NCBI GenBank assembly: GCA_016937015.1
Contig: JAFGWT010000151.1
Coordinates: forward strand, 1 to 48,123
Origin: Deltaproteobacteria bacterium
Lineage (GTDB): Bacteria; Myxococcota_A; Polyangia; JAAYKL01
Direction of reading: 5' to 3'
DNA: 48,123 nt
The translations under genes and the position numbers were made by a program. Every line of letters starts with the position of its first letter. Position 1 is the first letter of the stretch. This document shows, piece by piece, positions 2,724-44,030 of the stretch. The notes beneath the pieces were generated by a model. That model did not search any database. It worked only from the letters and a program-made list of their open reading frames with translations, and was not told where the DNA came from.

Positions 2724-5700
2724 TTAAAACTCCAGTCTGAAGCGCAAATCAAGACCCCAGTTTCCCGCTTTACTGGTTTCTGTTTTGTTGTCATACCCCG
2801 CAGAAACCGAAACATTGTCATTTATTTCATAACTCAGTGTGCCTTCCACATCCTGTTCCTGACCGACGCTTGACGACACCTGAACCCATATATCGTCGGC
2901 AATTCGTTTCCCAAGCGCCACCCGTGTGGTTTCAGCTGCGGCTTTTTCAGAATATTCGCTGTACACATTCACTTCAACCGGGATGGCGTCAGACCCCGCA
3001 TTTTCCAGCAGTGGCAGCAGGCTCATGGCGAGCCCCTGGCTGTTCATCGCAGTGTGCTCCTGTTTAATCATGCCAGTCAGCAGCAGAATCACAATGTCCT
3101 CCTGAGAAAGGTATGGCTGGCTGGAGAGCCGCACTTCATACTCTTCCACCGTGCCCTCCGCGGTAATGGTCACCTTCCAGTCGCGGACGTCCACATCCGC
3201 TGTCACTCTGAAATACGGGTTTTCAGGCCTGTTGGGATCTTTAAACGACAAAAATGCATTTTGGATTTCAAATGTCTTTCCTGCAAAGCGCACTTCACCG
3301 TCAGCGCCCAGAACCCTGCCCGTGAATCCGAAGTTCTGGCTCGTGCCAATCAGGCGAAGGGGTTCTTCGTGGTCGTCAATTTTCAATCGTGCATCCAGGA
3401 GATTGTTTAATATTTCGAGGTTTCTCTCACCGTGCAGTCGAATATCATATTCAAACGAATCCTTGCTTTTGTCGAAAAGTCTTGGCCGTTTGGTACGCTT
3501 TCGCTTTCCGCCGATTCCGGTCATATCCAGGTCCGACAACTCAATGATATGTACCGGCGCGGTATACTTAAAATTGGAAATTTCAACATCACCGGTGATC
3601 TGTGGGATGTCCCGTTCCTTTCCGGGTATCATGATAAGTCCGTCATTGCGCGTGGATGCCTTAAGTGACAAATCGTCCATCAATCGGAGTCCCAGATTGG
3701 CGGCAGTGAGCGTAAATCGATAATCGTCAATTCGCATACCATGCAGTGACAGCCAACCATGCATATCCATTGAACCACCAGCAGTTTTTGCGGAAAAATC
3801 CTCAAGTCGAATCATACTTGATCCCAGCTGTAGCTTCCCATTGACAGACTCAATCACATGGGGGAATCCTTCCACTGAAAACTGTGCGTCCCTGACTTCC
3901 GCCTCGCCTCTGAATTTCGGATCATCCCACGGACCACTGATGACCGTATTGAATGAAAGTGTTCCGGCACTTTCTGTAATGGTGTCAGTGAGCTGGTTGA
4001 GCAACTTTAGATTGGTTAGCCCATGAGCGGTCAGTTTGAACTTCCTGGCGTCAATCCGTGCATCCATGTCGAAAACAAAATTTTTGCCAAGAAACCGCGC
4101 GCCATCAAATGTCAGAATACTGTCTTCAAAACTCAGGTTGAATGGCTGCTTGTTGGCAATCGCCAGCCGGTTGTATCGTCCGGACAGATTGAATATTCGG
4201 CCGTTGCCCCGGATGCGGGGGTTGCCTGCCAATTTGCCGATGACGGCCAGTTCGCCTGTGGTTTTTAGCGCCAGACGATTTTTGGATGACTGAAATCCAA
4301 GCACCGCCGCCAGATCCAAATCAGTCACAAACGCTTCCAATTCAAATTTGTTTTTATTGAAATCAAATACACTGTGTTCCAGCACCGCCATGCCATTGGC
4401 CAGTGTGCCTGCTGCACCAACCACATTATCGTCGAGGGTCAGTTCCACGTCACTGTTTCCAAATCGCATCTCGTGGCGCTTCATATCGCTGATTCGCACC
4501 GTTGCCTTTCCCCGGGGATTGTCCCAGGTGCCTTCTATGACTACAAGCGCCTGTCCGGTACCTTCAATTTCCAAGTCACTTACCGCTGGAAAGACAATGT
4601 CTTCGATGCGAACGTTGGTTGCCACACCCATAAAATTCAGCTCATCGTTCCCGCCGAGCGTGCCGGAAATTGCCACAGACCCCTTTCCCTTGCTCATATC
4701 AAACCGATTCACTGTCAGAATATCATTGTCATAGACTGCATTTACCGCACCTTTACCGAATACCTCATTGAACAGAGTGAGTCCTTCGTGGGACACAACG
4801 GTATCCACTCGCAGGTTTTCCGGTTTAGACTGATAGCGAATATCCACTGTACCGGAGACGTATCCTTTGGGATTACCCCACCTGGACGTATCCAGATGGT
4901 ATGAACGGCCCAGATCTTCCAGCTCCGCGCGCTCAATATCGAAAATGGTATTGATGCTCAGCCCAAATGGTGAGTGGAAATCAAGTGTCAGTCGCCCCGC
5001 GTGGTAATGGCTTTTACGGCTGCGTAAATCGAGGTTGTCAAACATCAGCTTTTCGCCATCAAACCGAATAACCGATGACGCGTGCCGATAATCGAACCCT
5101 GAAAAATTCATATCGGTGAAATCGATGCTGCCGTCGATGGTTGGCGCACCATACCCCGGCGCTTTGATTTTACAGTCCAGCCTGCCGTTGCCATCAACTG
5201 CAAAGCCTGTGATTTGGCCAACATCCCCAAGGTCCATCCGGGATGACCAGGCGTGCAGATTCCAGCCTGCCTGCTTATTGAACGCAAATCCCATATCCAC
5301 ATTTACGAGGGACTTGTTGCGTCGCACCAAAAATCCTTTACCCTCAAAACTGTTTTCGGTTACGGTGAAAGGTCCCTGCACTGTCGCATCTGGAATGGAC
5401 AGCAAAATTGATTTTCCTGGCTGTCGAAATCCGTCGTCAAACACCTGGTGATTTTTCACCCGTAGGGTTGCATTTCCTTTCAGACTGAGGCCATTCAGTG
5501 TACCGGTCACTTTGGCTTTGCCGCTTACCTGCTGCATCACGTAGGAATTATCAACTGTCAGATTTTCAAGCAGTTTTGCCAATTCGATGTCGTCGAGAGT
5601 CACTGTGCTTTGGATGCTCATCTTTTTGTCGAACGCCATTTCACCGGACATTCGCAACGCCCCACCGGCAGTGCGCAGCTCAACATCCGACCACGCCACT

Positions 5701-6707
5701 CCTCGGGAGTTGTAGGAAATCGTTCCATCCAAATCACCAATAACGAAATCATCCACTTCAACGCCTCGCAGCGTGACATCACCCCTCGCGATTACTTCCG
5801 GCTTGCCGCTTTTTTGCACTGCCACGTTCAGTTGCCCGGCAAATCCGGCAGTCCCTTTCAAAGCGGGGGTCTCAATTGGAAACCGCGCCAGTCGTCGCAA
5901 CGGCACATTTACTGAGACAAACATGGCATTAAGCTGGTTTTCTGCAATGTTTACCGGTACGTACACGTCGCGACACTCAACGGCCACTTCCGCCAGCTTT
6001 CCCTGAAAGGTTCTAATGTTCAACGCATCTTCATCCAATGCCGCACGCAGCTTTAAACCGCGAACCTGCTCATCAAGAGTGATGGTTTCTTTTTGGAAAT
6101 TGACGTTTGCTTTTTCGAGCAACCCTCGAATTTCAATTTGCTCCTGTCCACGGTGCCGGCCAGTAATATCCAGATAGAGGCCATTTACAGTGAGGTTTAA
6201 TCGCCCCATCTCTGTTGGATCGTCTATTTCAAATTCAAATCGCCCGCTGCTGAGTGCCACAACATCGAATTTTGGCAGGAAGGAGAGGTCGATGCGATCA
6301 CTGGCAGTGTCGCCAATTTTGGAGGCGCTGCGAAATCGTGCCATGTCGTCAGCTGAAAGAAATACGTGACAGTTTGGCGCCCCCATGTAGATTTCTTCGA
6401 TGCTGATTTTACCAGCCAGTAAATCCAGCGCGCTGGGTGAAACTTCGGCTTCCTCCACGGTACACCCGATATCCAGATCCTTGCCTTTAACCTTCAAATC
6501 CTCGAGCAGTAGTCGGGGAGGAAAAAATTCCAAATCGATTTGTCGAAATTCCACCTGAAGTCCGGTTTGACGCTGGATGCCGTCGTGCAGTTCTTTTGAA
6601 ATCCACTTGGACCCGGGTTTCGATGTAACAAACAGCAATGCCCCGGCTGCGAGGAGTCCCACCAGCAAAAAGACCACAAGAAAAATTCTGGCGATCCGCC
6701 TGGCCAC
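2724..6707 (-). CDS. tamB: TamB-like translocation/assembly module, AsmA-like bridge protein
   Basis: This 1327-residue protein starts at a GTG preceded by GAGGTAAC. Residues 5-27 form one N-terminal membrane anchor. The rest is long, repetitive beta-rich sequence of the AsmA/TamB type, seen in strings of short strands with G-x-L/G-x-I turns. The C-terminal 350 residues carry the TamB (DUF490) signature, including the stretch around LSSQPYLSQEDIVILLLTGM, and end in a strand with terminal Phe. Family role: an inner-membrane-anchored periplasmic tube that works with an Omp85 partner in outer-membrane protein assembly or phospholipid transport. The Omp85 gene follows after three bases in the same orientation, which supports the assignment. 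The length matches E. coli TamB (about 1260) well. A sigma70-like promoter lies about 60 bases upstream. Confidence 0.93.
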   Translation of the reverse strand: MARRIARIFLVVFLLVGLLAAGALLFVTSKPGSKWISKELHDGIQRQTGLQVEFRQIDLEFFPPRLLLEDLKVKGKDLDIGCTVEEAEVSPSALDLLAGKISIEEIYMGAPNCHVFLSADDMARFRSASKIGDTASDRIDLSFLPKFDVVALSSGRFEFEIDDPTEMGRLNLTVNGLYLDITGRHRGQEQIEIRGLLEKANVNFQKETITLDEQVRGLKLRAALDEDALNIRTFQGKLAEVAVECRDVYVPVNIAENQLNAMFVSVNVPLRRLARFPIETPALKGTAGFAGQLNVAVQKSGKPEVIARGDVTLRGVEVDDFVIGDLDGTISYNSRGVAWSDVELRTAGGALRMSGEMAFDKKMSIQSTVTLDDIELAKLLENLTVDNSYVMQQVSGKAKVTGTLNGLSLKGNATLRVKNHQVFDDGFRQPGKSILLSIPDATVQGPFTVTENSFEGKGFLVRRNKSLVNVDMGFAFNKQAGWNLHAWSSRMDLGDVGQITGFAVDGNGRLDCKIKAPGYGAPTIDGSIDFTDMNFSGFDYRHASSVIRFDGEKLMFDNLDLRSRKSHYHAGRLTLDFHSPFGLSINTIFDIERAELEDLGRSYHLDTSRWGNPKGYVSGTVDIRYQSKPENLRVDTVVSHEGLTLFNEVFGKGAVNAVYDNDILTVNRFDMSKGKGSVAISGTLGGNDELNFMGVATNVRIEDIVFPAVSDLEIEGTGQALVVIEGTWDNPRGKATVRISDMKRHEMRFGNSDVELTLDDNVVGAAGTLANGMAVLEHSVFDFNKNKFELEAFVTDLDLAAVLGFQSSKNRLALKTTGELAVIGKLAGNPRIRGNGRIFNLSGRYNRLAIANKQPFNLSFEDSILTFDGARFLGKNFVFDMDARIDARKFKLTAHGLTNLKLLNQLTDTITESAGTLSFNTVISGPWDDPKFRGEAEVRDAQFSVEGFPHVIESVNGKLQLGSSMIRLEDFSAKTAGGSMDMHGWLSLHGMRIDDYRFTLTAANLGLRLMDDLSLKASTRNDGLIMIPGKERDIPQITGDVEISNFKYTAPVHIIELSDLDMTGIGGKRKRTKRPRLFDKSKDSFEYDIRLHGERNLEILNNLLDARLKIDDHEEPLRLIGTSQNFGFTGRVLGADGEVRFAGKTFEIQNAFLSFKDPNRPENPYFRVTADVDVRDWKVTITAEGTVEEYEVRLSSQPYLSQEDIVILLLTGMIKQEHTAMNSQGLAMSLLPLLENAGSDAIPVEVNVYSEYSEKAAAETTRVALGKRIADDIWVQVSSSVGQEQDVEGTLSYEINDNVSVSAGYDNKTETSKAGNWGLDLRFRLEF

Positions 6708-9947: not shown

Positions 9948-11033
9948 TTATTCCACTTCAACAACCACAAAGCAGTTGATGTCAGTCTCAATGCGAAAAT
10001 TTGACGCTTCGGTGTGTCGTTCCGCATGAAAGATATCCATCTTGTAAGTACCGCCTTTCTCAATTTCGAGGGTCTTTGCCTTTTTGTCGAAATCGATTGT
10101 GCCTTCGAATGGCCAGTGCATTCCCCCCAGATCAAGGGCGAGATGATCATTTACGAAAATCCAAAGGTCATCATCGCCTCGGAATGTGAATCGCTCACCA
10201 CCGGCATAGGTGAATTCCAGGTGCACTTCGGTGGTAAACAGGAAGTTGTGAGATTCACCGTCTTCGTCGCGCTGGCCACTTTCAACCCCCCATCCCTCTT
10301 CGTCTCCGATGGGGAAAAAGCTATTCGAGTCGAATACATATGAACCATCAGACTGCTTTTCCAAAGTGAGCCACTTCCTGACCTCTTTGTTTACATCATC
10401 AACAGTATTGTACCAGTCCGAGAACGATGATGAACCGTCGTACATTGGTACCGGAATGTCGTACTGTTCCTCGTTTTGCGCGCTGTTGTACCAGTTTTCT
10501 TCCCAACCCTGGGTCGAAACCAGATTTGCGCCATCCAGATCCCCGCCAGTGGGACATGTCTCCTGGCAACCGCTGTCCACGACCTGGTTAACACCCCAGG
10601 TACTGTTGAATCGGGGTTTGTCATCACTTCCCAGTTGTTCGTCCACAACGCCCTGTAAGGGTCCCCAGCCCAGATTGACACGCTGAAAATCCGGGTGTTC
10701 TGCCTTGAAATCCCGGAATACGGCCAGGATCACTTCACCGCAGTTATTGGGGTCCGGCGTATATTTGTCATACTCAATCCATGTATTGGGGGGCAGATTG
10801 CTTCCTGAATCACCGTCTGCATCAGAATCCCCGTCGCTGTCCGCGTCAGAATCAGCATCGCTATCGGTATCCGCGTCTGAATCCGATGGAATGATGCCGC
10901 CAGGCTTTTCACGATCACTGCTGCTGCTGCACGCAATTCCAAGAGACATCAGCAACACCGGTACCATTATCCCCAGCGCCATGGGCCATAATCCTTTAAC
11001 GCGCTGATTCTCTGTTTGAACACTGCTCATCAT
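9948..11033 (-). CDS. Fibro-slime domain lipoprotein with Asp-Ser linker
   Basis: The longest frame begins with TTG at 11048. I chose ATG 11033 because AAGGAG lies seven bases before it. The product has 361 residues. Its signal ends Leu-Gly-Ile-Ala-Cys (Cys35), a lipobox. An Asp-Ser/Asp-Ala linker covers roughly residues 50-75. The C-terminal half matches the fibro-slime/PA14-like pattern: FRGDDDLWIFVNDHLALDLGG followed by a strand pair and a KMDIFHAERH motif. Fibro-slime domains were first described in Fibrobacter surface proteins and Dictyostelium slime proteins and are linked to adhesion or polysaccharide binding. The likely location is the cell surface. Substrate or ligand is unknown. Confidence 0.85.
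   Translation of the reverse strand: MMSSVQTENQRVKGLWPMALGIMVPVLLMSLGIACSSSSDREKPGGIIPSDSDADTDSDADSDADSDGDSDADGDSGSNLPPNTWIEYDKYTPDPNNCGEVILAVFRDFKAEHPDFQRVNLGWGPLQGVVDEQLGSDDKPRFNSTWGVNQVVDSGCQETCPTGGDLDGANLVSTQGWEENWYNSAQNEEQYDIPVPMYDGSSSFSDWYNTVDDVNKEVRKWLTLEKQSDGSYVFDSNSFFPIGDEEGWGVESGQRDEDGESHNFLFTTEVHLEFTYAGGERFTFRGDDDLWIFVNDHLALDLGGMHWPFEGTIDFDKKAKTLEIEKGGTYKMDIFHAERHTEASNFRIETDINCFVVVEVE
10808..10890 (-). repeat. Asp-Ser/Asp-Ala codon repeat in fibro-slime gene
   Basis: Six-base units encoding Asp-Ser or Asp-Ala form a low-complexity tract just after the lipobox. It resembles the longer tracts at 38768-39008, 39574-39737 and 43662-43905. Confidence 0.8.
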
Positions 11034-11358
11034 TAAATTCTCCTTCAAAATAATTCCAAATAAGCACCCACGATCACAGGAACGCGGATTTACACACGCA
11101 TATAATATTAGTGGAAGGACTGCAGCGGATCAACAAAAGCATTAATCGTGTATTGATTCTTTGGCCGTTCAGGCGGGAAAACATTGAGTATCGCGAATGT
11201 CAAAGATTACAATTTTTTGCATTGCCTTAACGTGAAACCGAAAAACGGGATAACCGTGTTGCACATAAACCTTCAATACTGAATAATGAAATGACGATAA
11301 ATTTCGGCGAGTTGATGCGTAACAGGGGCATCCATTAAGCTAGGCGCGATAACTGTAT
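11034..11358. other. Divergent intergenic region, fibro-slime gene / histidine kinase
   Basis: This gap of 325 bases must hold the promoters of both divergent genes. A weak promoter candidate serves the leftward gene. For the kinase I find no clear -35/-10 pair and no good ribosome binding site before ATG 11359. No small gene or structured RNA is evident. Confidence 0.45.
11105..11133 (-). promoter_or_regulatory. Possible promoter of the fibro-slime lipoprotein gene
   Basis: On the minus strand TTGATC (11128-11133) and TAATAT (11105-11110) are spaced by 17 bases, each matching four of six consensus positions. The start codon is about 70 bases downstream. Weak prediction. Confidence 0.3.
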
Positions 11359-15655: not shown

Positions 15656-15846
15656 GTGTCCTTTTAGACGGGATTTATGGAAAAATTTTTCAATGAACAT
15701 GCATTTTTTTATTTCAGGTGCAGAAATATTATGGACAGCGAGGCGTTTTGCGATTTAATCGGTGGATGTCCAGAGGTAATTATTGCGTTGCTCGAGTTGG
15801 GACGTTTGTGAATTTCAGGGGATTACTCCAGTCAAAGGCACATGCT

Positions 15847-16365
15847 ATGTCTGAATCATTTTCAACGATGAAAAAATCAATCATTGAAGCCGGGGTGATT
15901 GCGGTCACGGTATTCCTGACTTCACTGGGAATCAACCTGGTGCATCCGTCACGCATTCCCTATATCGCTGACGCACCGTACGAAACAATGGTTCCGTGTC
16001 CCGTTCAGGAAGGGCACGTGACACCTGCGAACCCCACCGCGTTTGCGACGACATCTAAACATGTTCTATTTGTTGATGCCCGGGAGAAGGGCGACTACGA
16101 CAAATGGCACTACCCGGGTGCATTGCTTTTGACATATGATTTCCTCGATCCCATTCCCGAATCAGAGCTTCGCATCATGGCCCAGCGGATTGCTGCATTG
16201 CGCGCCACCAAAGTCGTTGTTTATGGAGATGGCGATGACCCGGATACCGGAAAGCTGCTGGGAATTGATATTTCTGCGTCTGGCATAAATAATGTTTACT
16301 TCGTCAGAGGCGGGGCGGCCGCTTTGGAGGAAGCCGTTGCTTCACAGAATCGAGGTGCCCAATGA
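15847..16365 (+). CDS. Membrane-anchored rhodanese-like protein lacking the catalytic cysteine
   Basis: The frame extends upstream to a GTG at 15718, but those 43 residues look non-coding. ATG 15847 has AAAGG ten bases before it and leads into a membrane anchor (about 12-32). The product is 172 residues. The rest is a rhodanese fold: LFVDAREKGDYDKWHYPGAL, then a strand VVVYGD where active rhodaneses have Tyr-Cys, then a conserved end NNVYFVRGGAAAL. The catalytic Cys position is Gly, so sulfur transfer is unlikely and a binding role is more plausible. The domain should face the periplasm. Its stop overlaps the next start by four bases (ATGA), so it is coupled with the MauE/DoxX gene. Confidence 0.8.
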   Translation: MSESFSTMKKSIIEAGVIAVTVFLTSLGINLVHPSRIPYIADAPYETMVPCPVQEGHVTPANPTAFATTSKHVLFVDAREKGDYDKWHYPGALLLTYDFLDPIPESELRIMAQRIAALRATKVVVYGDGDDPDTGKLLGIDISASGINNVYFVRGGAAALEEAVASQNRGAQ

Positions 16366-16841
16366 GCCGGTTCCTGGATTGGAGTGGACACCGGTGGATC
16401 GCACTGCCCATACGATTCTATCTGGGCGGTGTGTTTATTCTGGCCAGTCTGCATAAAATTGCACACCCGGATGCATTTGCACTCGACGTCGCCACATACA
16501 ACATTCTGCCGTTGTTTCTTATCAATATAATGGCAATATGTCTGCCGTGGCTGGAAGTGGTGTGTGGTGCGTTGATGATCGCGGGGGTTAAATCCCGTGC
16601 GTCCGCGTGGTTGATTTCGGGAATGATGGTGATGTTTCTTGTGGCGCTATTCGTCGCTCTCTCCAACGGTCTGGATATGTCCTGCGGGTGCTTCGCGTCA
16701 TCGTCAATGGCCAGTGAAGACACTATTTCAAAAATGACTGCACTTCGTGATTTGGGCTGGCTGGTGCTGGGAGTGTATGTTTTGATTTTTGATCATCGTC
16801 CAGTGGGTCTTGAATCGCTTATTTACAAAAGGAGAAAGTGA
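16362..16841 (+). CDS. MauE/DoxX-family membrane protein
   Basis: This protein has 159 residues; ATG 16362 has GAGGTG seven bases before it. Four membrane helices are visible (about 14-32, 50-75, 83-100, 128-148). A short CGCF motif (about 107-110) lies between the third and fourth. MauE/DoxX proteins with this motif are thought to pass electrons or disulfides across the membrane, as MauE does in methylamine dehydrogenase maturation. The gene sits between a rhodanese-like and a DsbA-like protein, which supports a thiol-redox relay in the cell envelope. Role inferred from family and context. Confidence 0.82.
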   Translation: MSRFLDWSGHRWIALPIRFYLGGVFILASLHKIAHPDAFALDVATYNILPLFLINIMAICLPWLEVVCGALMIAGVKSRASAWLISGMMVMFLVALFVALSNGLDMSCGCFASSSMASEDTISKMTALRDLGWLVLGVYVLIFDHRPVGLESLIYKRRK

Positions 16842-16842
16842 T

Positions 16843-17688
16843 ATGAACAGATTTGCATTTGTTGGATTCGTGTTCGCCGTTTTTGTTTTCACGTCAGCAG
16901 CGGTTCAGGCAGGTTTGCCCGAATGCGATAAACTCACCGGTGAAAAGAAAGTGCTGGCCGAAAAAATTCTCAACAGCGTGCACCCCTACAGCTGCTGCGA
17001 TGAGACTATAAGCAAATGTCTTAAGAAGAAAAATCCATGTGCGCTTGCAGAGCGTCTGGCCCGTCGCGTGTGTCGGCTGGTGGCCAAGGGTGAGTCAGAG
17101 GACAAAATCAACCGAAGACTTCAAAAACGGGCCGAAAGCATGAATTCGTATCAAAAGAAAGCAACGATTAATCTGGCAGGAACGGTTCCGGCCGGTGATG
17201 TCAATGCGCCGGTGAAGGTGGTGGTGTATGCCTGCGCCCGCTGCCCGTTTTGCAGCAAAATCATACCGGCGCTCCAAAAGGAAGTAACGAATGGGAGATT
17301 GAAGGGAAAGGCGCAGCTGTTTTTCAAGCCATTTCCATTAAAGAGCCACGATTACTCAAAAGAGGGTGGTTTAGCGATGGTCGCTGCATCCGATTTGGGT
17401 AAATTCTGGGAGTTCACGCTGTATATGTATGAACATTTTGACATGTTCTGCGTGGATAAACTGGCTGACTGGGCGGAAATGCAGGGTATGGATAAAGAAA
17501 AATTCAGGCAACTGATGGCGGATGCGAATACCCGTAATGCACTGGTTGAGAGTAAGAGGGAAGGCCTGGCTAACGGTGTCAAAGCGACGCCGCAACTGTT
17601 TATAAATAACAAAATGTATACTGGGTTTCTTGATATTGATGAGATAGTGGACATAACGCTCGAGGAAGCGGAAAATTCGTCAAAGTAA
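16843..17688 (+). CDS. Exported DsbA-like thiol-disulfide protein with CcmH-like N-terminal part
   Basis: ATG 16843 is preceded by AAAGGAG and opens a signal peptide ending Ala-Val-Gln-Ala (residue 23), so I chose it over the upstream ATG. The product has 281 residues. Residues 45-100 contain six cysteines and the pattern SCCDETISKC ... RVCRLVAKGESEDKI, which resembles the CcmH/CycL helical domain. Residues 110-275 form a thioredoxin/DsbA fold with Cys134-Pro-Phe-Cys137 and the cis-Pro motif ATPQLFINN. Likely a periplasmic oxidoreductase or disulfide carrier paired with the MauE/DoxX protein one base upstream. The double architecture is unusual. Confidence 0.85.
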   Translation: MNRFAFVGFVFAVFVFTSAAVQAGLPECDKLTGEKKVLAEKILNSVHPYSCCDETISKCLKKKNPCALAERLARRVCRLVAKGESEDKINRRLQKRAESMNSYQKKATINLAGTVPAGDVNAPVKVVVYACARCPFCSKIIPALQKEVTNGRLKGKAQLFFKPFPLKSHDYSKEGGLAMVAASDLGKFWEFTLYMYEHFDMFCVDKLADWAEMQGMDKEKFRQLMADANTRNALVESKREGLANGVKATPQLFINNKMYTGFLDIDEIVDITLEEAENSSK

Positions 17689-20155: not shown

Positions 20156-20818
20156 ATGACCGAAAAAGTGAATTTGCTGAATATTGAAAAAATCGACGAA
20201 AGATACAGCGGTCTGGCGGAACAAAGCTGTTGTCTGTCCTGCGGTCAGGCTATCAATCTGGCCGAGCCGCGCGAGGGCGAGGTTTGTGTGGATATTGGAA
20301 GCGGTCGCGGCACCGATGTGATTCGCATGGCACAGACGGTGGGCCCTAATGGATATGCGTACGGTGTCGACACATCGTCCGGCATGCTAAAAAAAGCGCG
20401 CAGTACAGCCAAAAAGCTTGGCGTGGACAATGTGGAGTTCATTGATGCCACATTTGAAAATATCCCGTTGCGGGATCAATGTGCGGATTTGATTATATCC
20501 AATTGTTCCATCAATCATGCCGATAACAAACAGGCGGTGTGGCAGCAGATTTATCGAATACTCAAAGGCGGTGGCCGGTTTGTTGTAAGCGACATTTATG
20601 CCATTGAACCGGTTCCGGAGGAATACCGCAACGATCCGGAGGCGGTGGCCGAGTGCTGGGCCGGCGCGGTCACTAAAGACGAATACATGAAAACCCTGCA
20701 GTATGCCGGATTTGGCACAATTGAAATCCTCGAGGAAAGCGCGCCATACGATAAAGGCAAAGTTCAGGTGGCCAGCTTTACCATTCAGGGGACACGTCCC
20801 GGTTGTTGCTGTGGATAA
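20156..20818 (+). CDS. ArsM-like SAM-dependent methyltransferase with CCCG tail
   Basis: I chose ATG 20156 because GAGGGG precedes it; the upstream 37 residues have no coding character. The product has 220 residues. The class I methyltransferase core shows VDIGSGRGTDVIRMA (motif I), YGVDTSSGML and the stretch ISNCSINHADNK. Cys117 and Cys167 match the two arsenite-binding cysteines of ArsM (Cys174 and Cys224 in the Cyanidioschyzon enzyme, from memory). A CCLSC cluster (25-29) lies near the N-terminus. The protein ends with Gly-Cys-Cys-Cys-Gly. Known family role: methylation of arsenite or related thiol-bound metalloid. Here it heads a cluster with a Cys peptide, a radical SAM enzyme and thioredoxin reductase, so its substrate could be a peptide-bound thiol or metalloid. 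Confidence 0.8.
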   Translation: MTEKVNLLNIEKIDERYSGLAEQSCCLSCGQAINLAEPREGEVCVDIGSGRGTDVIRMAQTVGPNGYAYGVDTSSGMLKKARSTAKKLGVDNVEFIDATFENIPLRDQCADLIISNCSINHADNKQAVWQQIYRILKGGGRFVVSDIYAIEPVPEEYRNDPEAVAECWAGAVTKDEYMKTLQYAGFGTIEILEESAPYDKGKVQVASFTIQGTRPGCCCG

Positions 20819-20847
20819 CCGATAACCATTTATTACGGAGAATTAAA

Positions 20848-20985
20848 ATGAAATCACTCACTAAAACCAAACAGATTGAATCTCAAAAGAGCAGTACCCA
20901 TAAACGCGAAGAAAAAAAGGATACCAAATCGGTTGCCCAGTGCTGCGCCAAGGTGTCCAAAGTTGTGGCCGGCTGCCACGATTGA
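20848..20985 (+). CDS. Short Cys-containing peptide, candidate RiPP precursor
   Basis: This is a 45-residue frame; ATG 20848 follows CGGAG at seven to nine bases. The first 28 residues are Lys/Glu/Ser/Thr-rich and look like a leader. The tail SVAQCCAKVSKVVAGCHD holds three cysteines and is small-residue rich like a core. It lies 29 bases after the methyltransferase and 75 bases before a radical SAM/SPASM gene, the classic place of a precursor peptide. There is no signal peptide. It could also be a small metal- or metalloid-binding peptide. I do not recognise a named precursor family. Confidence 0.7.
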   Translation: MKSLTKTKQIESQKSSTHKREEKKDTKSVAQCCAKVSKVVAGCHD

Positions 20986-21060
20986 ACCGCAAACAGCTGC
21001 TTTCTTTTTCCGACACCAAATCTTCTCCATTCGTCTCCTTTGCCTGAAAGATGACTGACC

Positions 21061-22389
21061 ATGTTAAAAAAGTCCAAATACAATATCATTTTTGACCTTG
21101 AAAACGGCGAAAGCAAAATGATTGCGAATTCCCTGTATGGCGCGGCGGACGTTCTGAATAGCTCGGAATACGGGCAATATCAGACCGATGATTTTTCGGA
21201 TCCCATGTGGCGGGAGCGCGGCTATGCGGTGGTGCCCGAAGAAGAACAACAGGCTTTTCAAACCCAATATATGGATTTCATTGACAGTCGCGACACTGAG
21301 GAAATTCAGCTGTTTTTTGTTCCCACATACAACTGCAATTTTGGATGCGATTACTGCTATCAAAGCGAGTATACATCATCGGCCTCCGTGTATGAACCCG
21401 CCGTGGTTGATGCATTTTTTGATTACATTGGATCCGAATTTGCCGGCAGGAAAAAGTATTGCACCCTGTTTGGGGGAGAACCGCTGCTGCCAAATGAAAA
21501 AGCAGTGCAGCTGGTATCGTACTTTCTTTCAAAGGCCAAAGCGCACGGGCTGGAAACAGCGATCGTCACAAATGGATTTCACCTGAAAAAATATTTGCCG
21601 GTGCTAAAAGAGTCGCTTATTCGTGAGGTGCAGGTAACACTCGATGGCACCAGGGAAGTGCACAACAAACGACGTCCATTGAAAGGCGGCGGCAACACGT
21701 TCGATGAAATTGTTGAAGGCGTTGATGCTCTGCTGAATGCGGGATTGTCAGTTAATTTGCGCATGGTGGTGGACAGCGACAACATCGGTTCCCTCGCGGA
21801 CCTCGCGGCATTCGCCATAGACAAAGGGTGGACAAAAGCCCCTGGATTCAAGACGCAGCTGGGCCGCAATTATGAGTTGCACAGCTGTCAGAAAAATGGA
21901 CAGGCGCTGTATAGCCGTGTGCAGATGTATGAAGAGTTGAAGGACTTGATTGAAAAGCATCCGCATATCCTTGAGTTTCATACGCCATCTTTTCATTTTG
22001 TTAAGTCACTTAGGGACAATGGCGAATTGCCCGCTGCGCTGTTTGATTCGTGTCCAGGATGTAAGACTGAATGGGCATTTGATTACCAGGGGAACATTTA
22101 TTCCTGCACGGCCACAGTGGGCAAGCAAGACGAGGTACTGGGAACCTTTTTCCCACACGTGACCAAACATGACGACGATATTGAAGGCTGGCAGGACAGG
22201 GATATTCTTGCCATAGAAAAATGCAGGGACTGCAACCTGGCGCTGGTGTGCGGCGGTGGTTGCGGATCTGTGGCCAAAAATCAGAACGGCAGCGTCAGCA
22301 CGCCGGATTGCCGGCCCGTAAAGGAAGTTGCACAAACCGGCGCCAGATTGTTTTTTACGCCAGACGGCGAATTGCGGCGGCTCAAGTGA
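21061..22389 (+). CDS. Radical SAM/SPASM peptide maturase
   Basis: This protein has 442 residues, with only a weak ribosome site before ATG 21061. The first 80 residues look like a small recognition domain (FDLENGESKMIANSLYG). The radical SAM motif is Cys92-x3-Cys96-x2-Cys99 (CNFGCDYC), followed by the GGEPLL motif, VTNGFHL and VTLDGTREVHN. The C-terminal SPASM part has SCPGCK, YSCTATVGK and the cluster CRDCNLALVCGGGCG, ligands for two further iron-sulfur clusters. Family role: making thioether, carbon-carbon or epimer modifications in ribosomal peptides. The short Cys peptide just upstream is the obvious candidate substrate. No exporter or protease is present in the cluster. Confidence 0.9.
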   Translation: MLKKSKYNIIFDLENGESKMIANSLYGAADVLNSSEYGQYQTDDFSDPMWRERGYAVVPEEEQQAFQTQYMDFIDSRDTEEIQLFFVPTYNCNFGCDYCYQSEYTSSASVYEPAVVDAFFDYIGSEFAGRKKYCTLFGGEPLLPNEKAVQLVSYFLSKAKAHGLETAIVTNGFHLKKYLPVLKESLIREVQVTLDGTREVHNKRRPLKGGGNTFDEIVEGVDALLNAGLSVNLRMVVDSDNIGSLADLAAFAIDKGWTKAPGFKTQLGRNYELHSCQKNGQALYSRVQMYEELKDLIEKHPHILEFHTPSFHFVKSLRDNGELPAALFDSCPGCKTEWAFDYQGNIYSCTATVGKQDEVLGTFFPHVTKHDDDIEGWQDRDILAIEKCRDCNLALVCGGGCGSVAKNQNGSVSTPDCRPVKEVAQTGARLFFTPDGELRRLK

Positions 22390-22437
22390 CGCGTAAATGC
22401 ATATTGAAAAATAACTTTTCAGCACCAGGGGAATACC

Positions 22438-23736
22438 ATGTCAGAACACAACATCAGTTACATCAATCATGAGGAATGGGAAAAAGAAGTATTGCGTGCG
22501 AAAGGAGGCGTTGTCGTAGATTTTTATTCTTCCGAGTGTCCTCCCTGTGAAGCCCTGGCATCAAAGTACGAGTCGCTGGCGGGCATTTATGGCAATGACG
22601 TTAAATTTATAAAGGTATTCCGCCAGGAAAACCGGGATCTGGCTGAATCGCTGGGGGTCAAGGGATCTCCCACGGTTCTTTTTTATAAGGATGGCGCGCA
22701 TACGGGCGACACCCTGAGTGGCGGCATTCGTCGCGCCGATTTGGAGCGCAATATTCATGCACTGTTGCCGGAAGAACGGGCGCAGCAGCTTAAAGCTCAG
22801 GAGAAACCGTTTACCAGTGAGTACGATGTGATGATTATTGGCGCTGGCCCCGCTGGAATGACAGCCGCAATTTACGCGGCCCAGGCCAAACTGAAAACGG
22901 TGCTGGTGGACCGCGGCATGCCTGGCGGTAACGTGAGTATCACCCACCAGGTGTCCAATTATCCCGGCTTTGTTGCCCCCCAGCCCGGTTACATGCTGTC
23001 TCATTACATGTCGGAACAGGCGAGGGAGGCCGGTGCGCATTTTCGGCAGGCCGTGGATATTACCAGTGTGGATTTACATAAAAAAGCTCTCGTGGTGGAT
23101 GGCATTGAGACCATCCTAGCTAAAAAGATTATTCTGGCGACAGGGTCTTCGCCCAGGCCACTGAACATTCCAGGTGAGGTGGAATACAAAGGGAAGGGCG
23201 TTTCTTACTGCGCCACCTGTGATGCCAAATACTACGAAGGCAAACATGTTGTGGTTATCGGAGGGGGCAACTCTGCGATTGAAGAGGCGTTGTTCATTGA
23301 TAAATTCACCGGTAAAATCACGGTGGTTCATCAGTTTGACCAACTGCAGGCGAACAAAACATCGGCTGAAAAAGCGCTGGCCAATCCCAATATTCAATTC
23401 ATGTTCTCCCACGAGCCTCGTGCGTTCATCGCCGAGGGCGGCACAGTGAACAGGGTTGAGGTAGAGGATTTGAAAACCGGCGAGCGAAAATTCATCGAAT
23501 GCGATGGGGTCTTTGTGTTCATTGGCATGGAACCCAACCTCAGTCTGTTTAGCGAAAGCTTTGAGAAGGATCAGTGGGGTTACATCGTCGTGGACGATTC
23601 CATGCGCACAAGCATTCCAGATGTGTTTGCGGCCGGCGACATCATTCATAAGCAGTATCGTCAGATAACGACCGCGGTTGCCGATGGCACCATCGCTGCC
23701 ATGGCCGCCGCCAAAGACCTTGAAGCCCAGGCGTAA
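22438..23736 (+). CDS. Thioredoxin-thioredoxin reductase fusion protein
   Basis: This protein has 432 residues; ATG 22438 follows AGGGGAATACC. Residues 5-105 are a thioredoxin fold with Cys34-Pro-Pro-Cys37 and a cis-Pro motif GSPTVLFY. Residues 125-432 are a low-molecular-weight thioredoxin reductase: FAD site IIGAGPAGMTAA, redox pair Cys258-Ala-Thr-Cys261, NADPH site VVIGGGNSAIEEA, and the C-terminal FAAGDIIHKQYRQITTA. The domain order, thioredoxin first, is the reverse of the known C-terminal thioredoxin fusion in Mycobacterium leprae. It begins 48 bases after the radical SAM gene and closes the cluster. It would supply reducing power to the methyltransferase or the peptide. Confidence 0.93.
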   Translation: MSEHNISYINHEEWEKEVLRAKGGVVVDFYSSECPPCEALASKYESLAGIYGNDVKFIKVFRQENRDLAESLGVKGSPTVLFYKDGAHTGDTLSGGIRRADLERNIHALLPEERAQQLKAQEKPFTSEYDVMIIGAGPAGMTAAIYAAQAKLKTVLVDRGMPGGNVSITHQVSNYPGFVAPQPGYMLSHYMSEQAREAGAHFRQAVDITSVDLHKKALVVDGIETILAKKIILATGSSPRPLNIPGEVEYKGKGVSYCATCDAKYYEGKHVVVIGGGNSAIEEALFIDKFTGKITVVHQFDQLQANKTSAEKALANPNIQFMFSHEPRAFIAEGGTVNRVEVEDLKTGERKFIECDGVFVFIGMEPNLSLFSESFEKDQWGYIVVDDSMRTSIPDVFAAGDIIHKQYRQITTAVADGTIAAMAAAKDLEAQA

Positions 23737-38624: not shown

Positions 38625-38689
38625 TAAGGCACTTTACAATGTACGCTAATTTGGGCGTTCATTTTGCTTTTAATAATAAAGGAGTGTGC

Positions 38690-40651
38690 ATGAAACGGTT
38701 ACTTTGGATTTTTGTTTGCCTCACTGCGTTCTGGGCTTTGGGGTGCGGTACCACCAGCGAGACCGGCGACAGTTCAGATAGTGATTCGGATAGTGATTCG
38801 GATAGTGATTCGGATAGTGATTCGGATAGCGATTCTGACAGTGACAGTGATTCTGATGGGGATTCTGACAGTGATTCGGACAGCGATTCGGACAGCGATA
38901 GTGATTCGGATTCGGACAGTGATTCGGATTCAGACAGTGATTCGGATTCAGACAGTGACAGCGATTCCGATAGTGATTCGGATTCGGATTCGGACAGCGA
39001 TGGGGATATGTCGTCGTGTGACAACGTATCATTCGAGATTAAGACCGGCGGTTTTGTGTGTGCGGGTGCCATGCACGGATACGCATGGACCAGTCCTGGC
39101 GAAATTGATGGGGCTGAAATTGACCCGGCCAATTTTGAGGCAGTGTCAGGGGGCGAAGGCAAGCTGTGCGTGACCGGAAAAACCGTTGGCGATGAATCCT
39201 GGGGGTCGGTGGGAATCCTTGGTCTCAATGCATCTCAGGCGGAAGGTTCAAGTAAGGAAGGGGCCTGGAAGCCAACGAGCGACAACGACGGTATCGATGT
39301 CACAATTTCCAAAAACGGCACTTTTACGGTACGGCTTCAGGTTAAAACCGATGGTGGTGACGAATACTGCACAACCATCGATGACGGCGCCAACTCTGTA
39401 AAATGGGAAGATCTGACAGAAGCCTGCTGGGAATCCGGGAATCCGTCCTATAACGGAGAAGACCCCATTTCGTCGGTAATGCTGCTGGTGCCGGGCCACA
39501 ATGTTAATGACATTGATTACGATTTCTGTCTTGAAGAAATGATCGCCACTGGTGGCAAGGAAGTGATTGTGACCGATTCCGATTCTGACACGGATACTGA
39601 CACGGATTCGGACACGGACAGTGACACTGATTCGGATACGGACAGCGATACTGATTCGGATACGGACAGCGATACTGATTCAGACACGGACAGTGACACT
39701 GACACCGATACGGATTCCGACAGCGACGGCGACGGCGTGGTTTACGATTGCGGTATCCCGGATGCCGGTGAAGGTGGCAAATCCAAACCATCCGGAGCCC
39801 CCGGAGGCCTGAAAATCCTCGACTGGGCTGGCTACAAAGGCGCACTTTCGTATACCTTTGATGATGGCGATTCGTCCCAAATAACTAATTTCGATGCGAT
39901 GATGGCCCTTGATGTGAATTTTACATTCTTTTTAACGACAGCAATGGGGCAATGGCAAAACGATAAATACAAACAGGCACTTGCAAAGGGACATGAGATT
40001 GGCAATCATACCAGCGTTCATGATGAGAGTTGCGGAGGTATCGCTGAGGGAAAATCAGCACTCGAAGCACATTTTGGGACGACACTGTATACAATGGCCG
40101 CACCCAACGTGAAAACAGACGCATGTAAAGCAGCAGGGGTTCAAAATTATCATTTCATGGATCGTGGGGCAAATGCATGGGATATCGGCAGCGCGAGTAC
40201 TGCGATTATCAAGCCAAATGACAATTCTGATCCGTTTAATCTTCCCAGTTGTTTACCTGGTGCAAATCCTTCTGCGAGCCAGCTGAATAGTGCATCAGAT
40301 GCGGCCAGAAATCAGGGCGGATGGCTGGTATATACGATTCATGGGTTTGGAAGTGGCTATAACCCATGGACCTACACCGATTTCGATTCCAACGTGAAGT
40401 ATGTGAAAGGGCAGGGGGACATGTGGATTGACAGCATGATGAATGTCGGCGCCTACTGGATGGGGCAGAAGTCAGCCAATGTTTCCGGAACTTCTATGAG
40501 CTTCAATCTCCCGAATCACTTTCCCGAGGGTAAATGCCTGCGAGTGACCGTGGATGGTGGCGATGTATACCAGGATGGCCAGAAAGTGGCCTGGAACGAG
40601 CACGGTTACTACGAAGTATCTCTCGATGGTGGCGAAGTCACAGTGAAATAA
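38690..40651 (+). CDS. Polysaccharide deacetylase (CE4) lipoprotein with two Asp-Ser/Thr linkers
   Basis: ATG 38690 follows AAAGGAG and opens a lipoprotein signal ending Ala-Leu-Gly-Cys (Cys19); the 17-residue upstream extension is rejected. The product has 653 residues. Linker one (about 27-106, Asp-Ser) is followed by a beta-rich domain (about 110-290) with Trp and Cys pairs that may bind carbohydrate. Linker two (about 295-350, Asp-Thr/Asp-Ser) leads to a CE4 domain: TFDDGD with the metal Asp near 392, and [10 protein letters not shown] with His440 and His444. Role: removal of N- or O-acetyl groups from chitin, peptidoglycan or xylan. A small beta domain ends the protein. Likely surface exposed. 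Confidence 0.85.
38768..39008 (+). repeat. Asp-Ser codon repeat, deacetylase linker 1
   Basis: About 80 codons alternate Asp with Ser, with occasional Gly, in 6-base units (GATTCG, GACAGC, GATAGT). Varied synonymous codons reduce but do not remove the potential for slippage. Confidence 0.9.
39574..39737 (+). repeat. Asp-Thr/Asp-Ser codon repeat, deacetylase linker 2
   Basis: A second tract, with period 12 bases coding Asp-Thr-Asp-Ser, separates the middle beta domain from the CE4 domain. Confidence 0.9.
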
Positions 40652-42941: not shown

Positions 42942-44030
42942 TCATCGATACGCGGGTGCAGCGGCGAAGAGCTGGCCGAGAGGTGTGAGAGCTGGGGGAT
43001 TTTCGCGGTCGGAGAGGCTGCTGTACGTGTTCCAGGGGTACCATGCGTAACGCTCCAGATCTGTCCGGTTGTTGAACATCTGCAGTGCGGAACTGAAAAA
43101 GTTCATTACGGTCTGCTCGTCAGGATTGCTTTCATTCATGCAGCCAAATTCGGTGAGCCAAAGGGGTTTTCCCCACTGGGAGGCCCAGTTCAGGGCACCA
43201 TTAAGTTGTCCGGCGTCGTTGCAGGACCCGGCGTTCCAGCCGTACCAGTGTACCGTGACAAAATCCACCCTAAGGCCATTGGCGTTCGCCTGCAGCATGA
43301 AGTCTTCAAGCCAGCCTCGCCCATTGTCAGACACAGCGGGACTGCCGACCCGCACGTTGGGGTTTGAAGTGAGCAGTGGCCACAATTCAATGGCGCGTTC
43401 CACTGTCATGTTGGCCTGGTCACTTTTATTGGGCTCGTTGAACCCAAGCACGACTGTGTAGCCTTTGCTGACGATCTCGTTATATTTGTCGATGATGCCA
43501 TCCTCTCCATCATCCCCCCATATCATCGGAACAAAATAGGGATCATCACAATCGGTCTCCTGAGAATAATGCATCCAGTTGTAACACCAGGATAAATTGA
43601 ACATCGCAATTTCATCAGCCCGGGAATTGCCCACTCCTTTAAAGGGAATTCCAGGTAATTCGGTGTCCGTATCTGAATCGGTATCAGAGTCAGTATCAGA
43701 GTCAGTATCAGAGTCAGTATCTGAATCGGTGTCAGAGTCAGTATCAGAGTCAGTATCAGAGTCAGTATCTGAATCAGTATCTGAATCGGTATCAGAGTCA
43801 GTATCTGAATCAGTATCTGAATCAGTATCTGAATCAGTATCTGAATCGGCATCTAAATCAGTATCTGAATCAGTATCACTGTCTGAGTCACTGTCTGTAT
43901 CCGCGTTTCCCGATGACGCATTGTTTGAATCAGTATTTTCAGAATCGGTGCCGCATCCGCAGAAAACTGTCAGCATCAGCAGTACCAGCGCTGTGAACGC
44001 CGTATTGAAAAAAAATAAAGTGTTACGCAT
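42942..44030 (-). CDS. GH128-type glycoside hydrolase lipoprotein (beta-1,3-glucanase-like)
   Basis: This protein has 362 residues; ATG 44030 has AAAGGG upstream. The signal ends Val-Phe-Cys-Gly-Cys (lipid Cys24 or Cys26). An Asp-Thr/Asp-Ser linker covers about 44-124. The catalytic core (Glyco_hydro_cc) has [12 protein letters not shown], the acid/base motif GFNEPN (Glu199), FVTVHWYGW and the nucleophile motif WLTEFG (Glu294), then WYPWNTY. GH128 enzymes hydrolyse beta-1,3-glucans, as in fungal or algal cell walls. It converges with the beta-helix gene, five bases between stops. Confidence 0.88.
43662..43905 (-). repeat. Asp-Thr-Asp-Ser 12-base repeat in the GH128 gene
   Basis: Near-identical 12-base units (plus strand TCAGTATCTGAA/TCAGTATCAGAG) cover about 240 bases. 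Its DNA identity is higher than in the deacetylase tracts, so recent expansion or slippage is likely. Confidence 0.9.

Follow-up and report, generated by a model that had tools for sequence, protein, structure and literature searches.

A conserved gene cassette for a candidate RiPP-like pathway with a cysteine peptide, a radical SAM/SPASM enzyme, an ArsM-like methyltransferase and a thioredoxin system

What might a short cysteine-containing peptide be doing beside an arsenic-type methyltransferase, a radical S-adenosylmethionine (SAM) enzyme and a thioredoxin system of its own? This question is raised by four genes on a 48,123-nucleotide stretch of DNA from a Deltaproteobacteria bacterium (contig JAFGWT010000151.1; hereafter the window), which is part of a 6.4 Mb draft genome and whose radical SAM protein clusters with Myxococcota in a tree. 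All four genes lie on the forward strand and encode an ArsM-like SAM-dependent methyltransferase (positions 20156 to 20818; 220 amino acids), a precursor-like peptide (20848 to 20985; 45 amino acids), a radical SAM/SPASM protein, the putative peptide maturase (21061 to 22389; 442 amino acids), and a thioredoxin-thioredoxin reductase (Trx-TrxR) fusion (22438 to 23736; 432 amino acids). An earlier, sequence-only reading had proposed that this cassette specifies a pathway resembling those of ribosomally synthesised and post-translationally modified peptides (RiPPs); the single direction and the intergenic gaps of 29, 75 and 48 bases that it gave agree with the coordinates checked on the window. 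We find the peptide and the radical SAM gene to be tightly associated across several phyla, and the cassette appears to represent a new family of SPASM peptide maturation with a partner set that is undescribed as far as the open-access literature reaches.

In public genomes, 320 relatives were confirmed by scanning, and 80 of these were retrieved. The alignments contain 92 loci for the peptide, 90 radical SAM sequences, 87 methyltransferases and 81 reductase sequences covering the CATC motif, and the co-occurrence surveys covered the host's class (290 genomes), Spirochaetia (297) and Bacteroidia (295). The loci examined (n = 92) span Myxococcota, Bacteroidota, Spirochaetota, Ignavibacteriota, Elusimicrobiota and Fidelibacterota.

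The cysteine peptide and its radical SAM partner

The peptide (MKSLTKTKQIESQKSSTHKREEKKDTKSVAQCCAKVSKVVAGCHD) starts with MKSLTKTK and ends with AQCCAKVSKVVAGCHD, a conserved 16-residue core (20935 to 20982) that forms its exact C-terminus. One such peptide, ending in AQCCAK-x-S-x4-GCHD-stop, is present beside the SPASM gene in each of the 92 loci (pattern search CCAK...GCHD-stop). A peptide frame lacking conservation in relatives would have refuted the sequence-only reading; the frame is conserved. Within the core, nine residues (A, C, C, A, K, G, C, H, D) are identical in 92/92 loci, including all three cysteines described for the tail, C32, C33 and C43; Q and S are kept in 91/92, and the positions between vary. 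The N-terminus follows the family consensus M[KR]SL[IV]KK, represented in the window by the aligned segment MKSLTKT (20848 to 20868), which we presume to be the leader recognition motif. The middle is a mostly charged linker of variable length, carrying an extra CC or CGC in some peptides.

The stop codon falls at the same point throughout, as TAA in 55, TGA in 31 and TAG in six loci. This mixture argues that the C-terminus is real and that the TGA does not encode selenocysteine, a form of readthrough that we had considered and rejected on these grounds. Between the window and a same-genus relative, the peptide gene shows 18 synonymous and six non-synonymous differences (pS 0.68, pN 0.055), and by this comparison it is under strong purifying selection. 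Given its presence in every locus, the shared stop position and the large excess of pS over pN, we take the peptide to be a genuine gene and not a chance open reading frame (ORF). Its apparent loss from four loci (L043, L048, L065, L073) was traced to ORF filtering. None of the NCBIfam, Pfam and PHROGs models names the peptide, and it has no NCBIfam or Pfam match at a meaningful E-value; an Rfam scan of the window returned no family at its gathering score.

Co-occurrence supports the view that the peptide and the radical SAM gene are locked together across phyla. Of the 290 genomes from the host's class, 19 encode the peptide, and all 19 carry an orthologous radical SAM gene. Eighteen of them are recovered by radical SAM search, and in the 19th (G029) this gene is cut by a contig end, facing the cassette; relatives of the enzyme at about 50% identity or more sit in the identical four-gene order with the same peptide tail. 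Spirochaetia encode the peptide in 34/297 genomes, again with the orthologue in 34/34; two extra orthologues (G635, G640) are cut short where their contigs end, on the side of the peptide. Only distant radical SAM relatives occur in eight genomes. The peptide occurs in three of the 295 Bacteroidia genomes, each time adjoining the methyltransferase and radical SAM genes. SPASM homologues regularly devoid of a cysteine peptide, which would have told against the sequence-only reading, were accordingly not what we found among the orthologues. Four genomes that seemed to be exceptions (G054, G105, G109, G029) encode the peptide elsewhere. More distant radical SAM genes in G710, G793, G620 and G702 (about 25-32% identity) were inspected for a variant peptide and assigned to other families, given that no peptide of this kind accompanies them; the gene in G702 adjoins nif11-type peptides, and the radical SAM/SPASM relatives in G710 and G793 (L220, L221; ~31% identity) stand alone, with no recognisable peptide.

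The expectation that all four genes recur together held for the pairing of peptide and radical SAM gene and for the cysteine positions, but not for every partner: the Trx-TrxR gene is unlinked in a few loci, and one genome (G014) has two of the genes only. Rearranged cassettes are informative in this respect. Trx and TrxR are encoded side by side as separate genes in G054 and G029. The radical SAM gene of G054 is located several kb from the group of peptide, Trx, TrxR and methyltransferase genes on the same contig, and G109 is grouped likewise. In all three genomes (G054, G109, G029), the genes for the peptide, the split Trx and TrxR, and the methyltransferase form one group, and the radical SAM gene is either convergent or at another site. 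The grouping of these functions despite a broken operon points to a functional connection. In a mirror-tree analysis, the pairwise distances within three cassette proteins correlate at 0.75-0.82 (0/1000 permutations as high), as expected if the genes are inherited as a unit. The tree needs nine phylum changes, the minimum possible being five, which indicates mostly vertical spread with some transfer.

The radical SAM protein carries the cluster motif CNFGCDYC (C92, C96, C99; 21334 to 21357) and the SPASM cysteines C331 to C417 (22051 to 22311), both of which had been recognised previously and proved invariant in the alignment. Besides the CX3CX2C cysteines (90/90), every cysteine of the pattern C331-X12-G344-X4-C349 ... 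C388-X2-C391-X5-C397-X3-C401 ... C417 is found in 90/90 sequences; C276 is a further invariant cysteine. In the AlphaFold2 model (pLDDT 92, pTM 0.89), the N-terminal domain (residues 1-80; 21061 to 21300) contains three strands and three helices (E8-14, E18-23, E28-32, H34-41, H48-52, H59-79), which is the layout of RiPP recognition element (RRE) domains (PMC8326336). Together with the fold matches, this predicted structure looks like an RRE-like domain and leads us to predict leader binding.

CteB and SuiB are the first Foldseek matches of the model, and CteB is the best match in the PDB by sequence and fold, with 17% identity in the fold alignment. Similar to the cassette enzyme, CteB, the thioether-forming maturase of the ranthipeptide SCIFF, combines an RRE-like N-terminus with radical SAM and SPASM domains and is encoded next to a short cysteine-containing precursor. 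However, SCIFF has six core cysteines whereas the cassette peptide has three invariant ones, and neither a methyltransferase nor a thioredoxin system is known to us from the CteB/SCIFF family. No NCBIfam model scores the cassette enzyme above its cut-off. The best scores all belong to RiPP maturases, namely TIGR04463 (134 bits, cut-off 525), CefB (NF038107; 129, cut-off 600), Clo7bot (116, cut-off 600) and PapB (108, cut-off 340), with full or near full-length similarity to these hidden Markov models; the same families score highest across 45 radical SAM members, and SCIFF reaches 96 bits against 425. The sequence-only reading could not place the pathway in a named class, and it fits none of those tested; the enzyme remains far under the curated cut-offs of these maturase families. 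Nine core residues fixed in all loci of six phyla, together with an unclassified maturase, imply a product with an important and conserved role, and we consider it very probable that the radical SAM enzyme has this peptide as its substrate.

Which type of product could this be? Resemblance of the enzyme to thioether-forming maturase families would suit a secreted bioactive RiPP, i.e. a sactipeptide or ranthipeptide acting as an antimicrobial or signal. Such a role appears highly improbable, given that the flanks of the 80 loci show no recurrent gene for immunity, for an exporter or another transporter, or for a peptidase of the C39 or any other type, and that the core is near-invariant across phyla, unlike antimicrobial cores. 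Because none of these genes recurs, the product is probably intracellular. A peptide-derived redox cofactor, comparable to mycofactocin or pyrroloquinoline quinone, would be in line with the invariant C-terminus, the missing exporter, the redox enzyme in the cassette and the RRE-like domain: here, the SPASM enzyme would act on the GCHD end, housekeeping proteases would free a small product and Trx-TrxR would serve as its redox partner. The model of the mycofactocin maturase MftC (TIGR03962), however, gives only 50 bits (cut-off 265), and no peptidase, Mft-like partner or cofactor-dependent dehydrogenase family is recurrent beside the cassette, which makes a cofactor of this kind rather improbable.

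An arsenic-type methyltransferase and its thioredoxin system

Six cysteines of the methyltransferase are conserved (C25, C26, C29, C44, C117, C167), and its C-terminus is cysteine-rich (GCCCG). C29, C117 and C167 align with C72, C174 and C224 of CmArsM, the three As(III) ligands of that enzyme (PMC3877260), and are invariant in 87/87 sequences, confirming the retained arsenic-binding pattern that the sequence had suggested. The AlphaFold2 model (pLDDT 93) finds CmArsM, CrArsM and human AS3MT, some of them arsenic-bound, as its best PDB folds. The cassette enzyme thus shares the fold, the cysteine triad and the N-terminal CC-x-x-C with ArsM proteins (CmArsM, AS3MT, PRK11873), but it is short, 220 amino acids against 377-387 in the solved algal ArsM enzymes, and scores 193.8 bits with the arsenite methyltransferase model NF008823 (cut-off 263). 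In the host's class, a profile of the cassette methyltransferases gives at least 240 bits in 20 genomes (the 19 peptide genomes and G014) and at most 177 bits for ordinary ArsM, and this score gap suggests a separate clade.

Comparison with ordinary ArsM of the host's class shows which parts of the protein changed. C25, C26, C29, C117 and C167 are common to both groups, whereas C44, R57, H121, W129, E166, W168, E194, S195, G201 and T209 distinguish the cassette enzymes; near the arsenic-site cysteines, H121 replaces L, W168 replaces V/L/I and C44 replaces V. A soft-ligand site would accordingly have been kept in altered surroundings, which would fit a different or larger substrate. Arsenosugar and arsinothricin pathways pair an ArsM-type methyltransferase with a radical SAM enzyme (ArsS/ArsL). 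The cassette methyltransferase differs in being far below the cut-off of the ArsM models NF038099 and NF040538, and its radical SAM partner is instead a SPASM enzyme with an RRE-like domain and a peptide.

In the Trx-TrxR fusion, the thioredoxin domain (CPPC, residues 34-37) precedes the reductase domain (CATC, residues 258-261, kept in 81/81 sequences). The fusion reaches 332 bits with the thioredoxin-disulfide reductase model TIGR01292 (cut-off 343.45). CPPC and CATC are shared with the thioredoxin reductase/AhpF family and with Trx-TrxR fusions, while the N-terminal position of the thioredoxin domain, an HQFDQLQA segment and the dedication to the cassette set the protein apart from the usual members. 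Classical NADPH-dependent thioredoxin reductases carry an HRRxxxR motif. In the reductase domain encoded in the window (within 22438 to 23736), HQFDQLQA occupies the usual position of the NADPH motif, and the electron donor may be other than NADPH. A second Trx-TrxR match in the host genome (L115), with an inner TGA, was considered as a selenoprotein and reads as two ordinary adjacent genes. Trx/TrxR is known to reduce AS3MT (PMC12608789), and the pairing of methyltransferase and Trx-TrxR therefore has precedent.

These features could be taken to indicate an organoarsenical or metalloid peptide, in which As(III) or another soft element would be bound by the three cysteines of the core and methylated on the peptide by the methyltransferase, with the radical SAM enzyme adding a further organic group or closing the peptide around it. 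The retained triad, the arsenic-bound structures among the nearest folds, the thioredoxin reductant and three core thiols, the number that As(III) needs, all speak for it. On the other hand, no arsR, arsB, acr3 or other ars gene is recurrent in the flanks of the 80 loci, the residues next to the arsenic site (H121, W168, C44) are unlike those of ordinary ArsM, and ordinary ArsM is often also present in cassette genomes, so plain arsenic methylation is covered elsewhere. Conserved cysteines and homology are what suggest the link to arsenic, and we regard such a product as unlikely.

A proposed intracellular pathway

From the gene set, its conservation and co-occurrence, the domains and the cysteines, we infer the enzyme-substrate relations, order of steps, chemistry and function of a RiPP-like pathway. 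The RRE-like domain of the SPASM enzyme would bind the N-terminal MKSL(I/V)KK segment of the peptide, and the enzyme would then modify the fixed core AQCCAK-x-S-x4-GCHD in a radical reaction, most likely at one cysteine, for example by forming a thioether, as its relatives would suggest. Subsequently, or in a coupled step, the ArsM-like methyltransferase would act on a thiol-ligated target associated with the peptide, which might be a cysteine sulfur or else a thiol-bound soft metal or metalloid, while the dedicated Trx/TrxR would keep the cysteines of peptide and methyltransferase reduced. The product would probably be retained in the cell as a peptide for thiol redox or metal(loid) handling rather than being secreted. 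We favour this scheme of an unnamed RiPP-like cassette with reasonable, though by no means firm, confidence; participation of arsenic or another metalloid in it is doubtful. It is tempting, if speculative, to think of a new intracellular RiPP class in at least six phyla, in which an RRE-guided SPASM enzyme and an ArsM-derived methyltransferase build a cysteine-core peptide with a methylated or metalloid-bound thiol centre that is recharged by thioredoxin and serves as a thiol/metalloid cofactor. Searches of the open-access literature for radical SAM and RiPP in combination with ArsM, for DUF1847 (a neighbour discussed below) and for the core motif retrieved no description of the system, nor do the papers searched describe an arsenic-type methyltransferase combined with a peptide maturase and a dedicated thioredoxin system.

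Several points weigh against the proposed pathway. Modification of the peptide is a prediction from the gene content. The cassette has no leader-removing protease, for which housekeeping proteases are conceivable substitutes, and the peptide may therefore not be a classical leader/core RiPP. Given that the genomes inside each class are related, the co-occurrence counts show consistency and not that many independent events. Moreover, no Trx-TrxR gene flanks the cassette in L074 or in three Bacteroidales that are related to each other (L068, L087, L097). Finally, G014 contains the methyltransferase and Trx-TrxR genes ~44 bases apart (L219, G014:C119, about 4526-6455), and neither the peptide nor the radical SAM gene was detected in this genome, which is 79% complete. 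The methyltransferase and Trx-TrxR can thus exist without the peptide; this one clear exception suggests that they form a sub-module.

The same genome might be cited for a different view, namely that the peptide is an unmodified thiol protein, such as a redox carrier, a metallochaperone for the methyltransferase or a glutathione substitute, with the radical SAM enzyme acting on another target. Trx-TrxR and ArsM both require thiol partners, and in the isolated G014 pair, S and D stand in the place of C25 and C26 of the methyltransferase. Yet no other partner follows the radical SAM gene more closely than the peptide does, and an RRE-like domain on the enzyme would be at odds with such a role; we therefore judge it improbable.

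Neighbouring genes and expression signals

The recurrent additional neighbours appear to be thiol/redox or uncharacterised proteins, which we count in favour of the proposed pathway. A DUF1847 protein is encoded in 30/80 loci, where its gene frequently separates the radical SAM gene from Trx-TrxR (e.g. L060:7306-7863); the protein is cysteine-rich and a candidate fifth partner of the cassette. Extra thioredoxins, DUF302 proteins and SQR-like flavoproteins recur as well.

A crude scan found terminator-like hairpins in the gap between the peptide and radical SAM genes in 25 of the 70 loci with a usable gap, compared with 2/31 radical SAM/Trx-TrxR and 15/75 methyltransferase/peptide gaps. A hairpin after the peptide gene would be expected if the peptide were required in excess. 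In the window itself, scans for terminators and promoters did not rise above chance.

Further observations concern the surroundings of individual cassettes. One Myxococcales genome bin (CAIOFV, bin-5834) has three cassettes with differing peptide leaders (L049, L077, L111). In eleven loci (L103:4109-4543 and ten more from Bacteroidota), a gene that lies upstream of the methyltransferase gene and runs in the opposite direction encodes a zinc-ribbon protein of ~144 amino acids; this protein resembles a fragment of an IS1595-type transposase and is possibly a domesticated regulator. Rhodanese-like, DoxX-like and DsbA-like genes, assigned by eye, follow one another in the window (15718 to 17688), at a distance of 2.5 kb upstream from the cassette; the rhodanese-like and DoxX-like families appear again upstream in L034, and a similar trio is located near the radical SAM gene of L118 (183-2061). 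Several further proteins encoded in the window, at 38639 to 40651, 42942 to 44030 and 9948 to 11048, contain long repeats of Ser-Asp or Thr-Asp dipeptides and are putatively exported or located at the surface.

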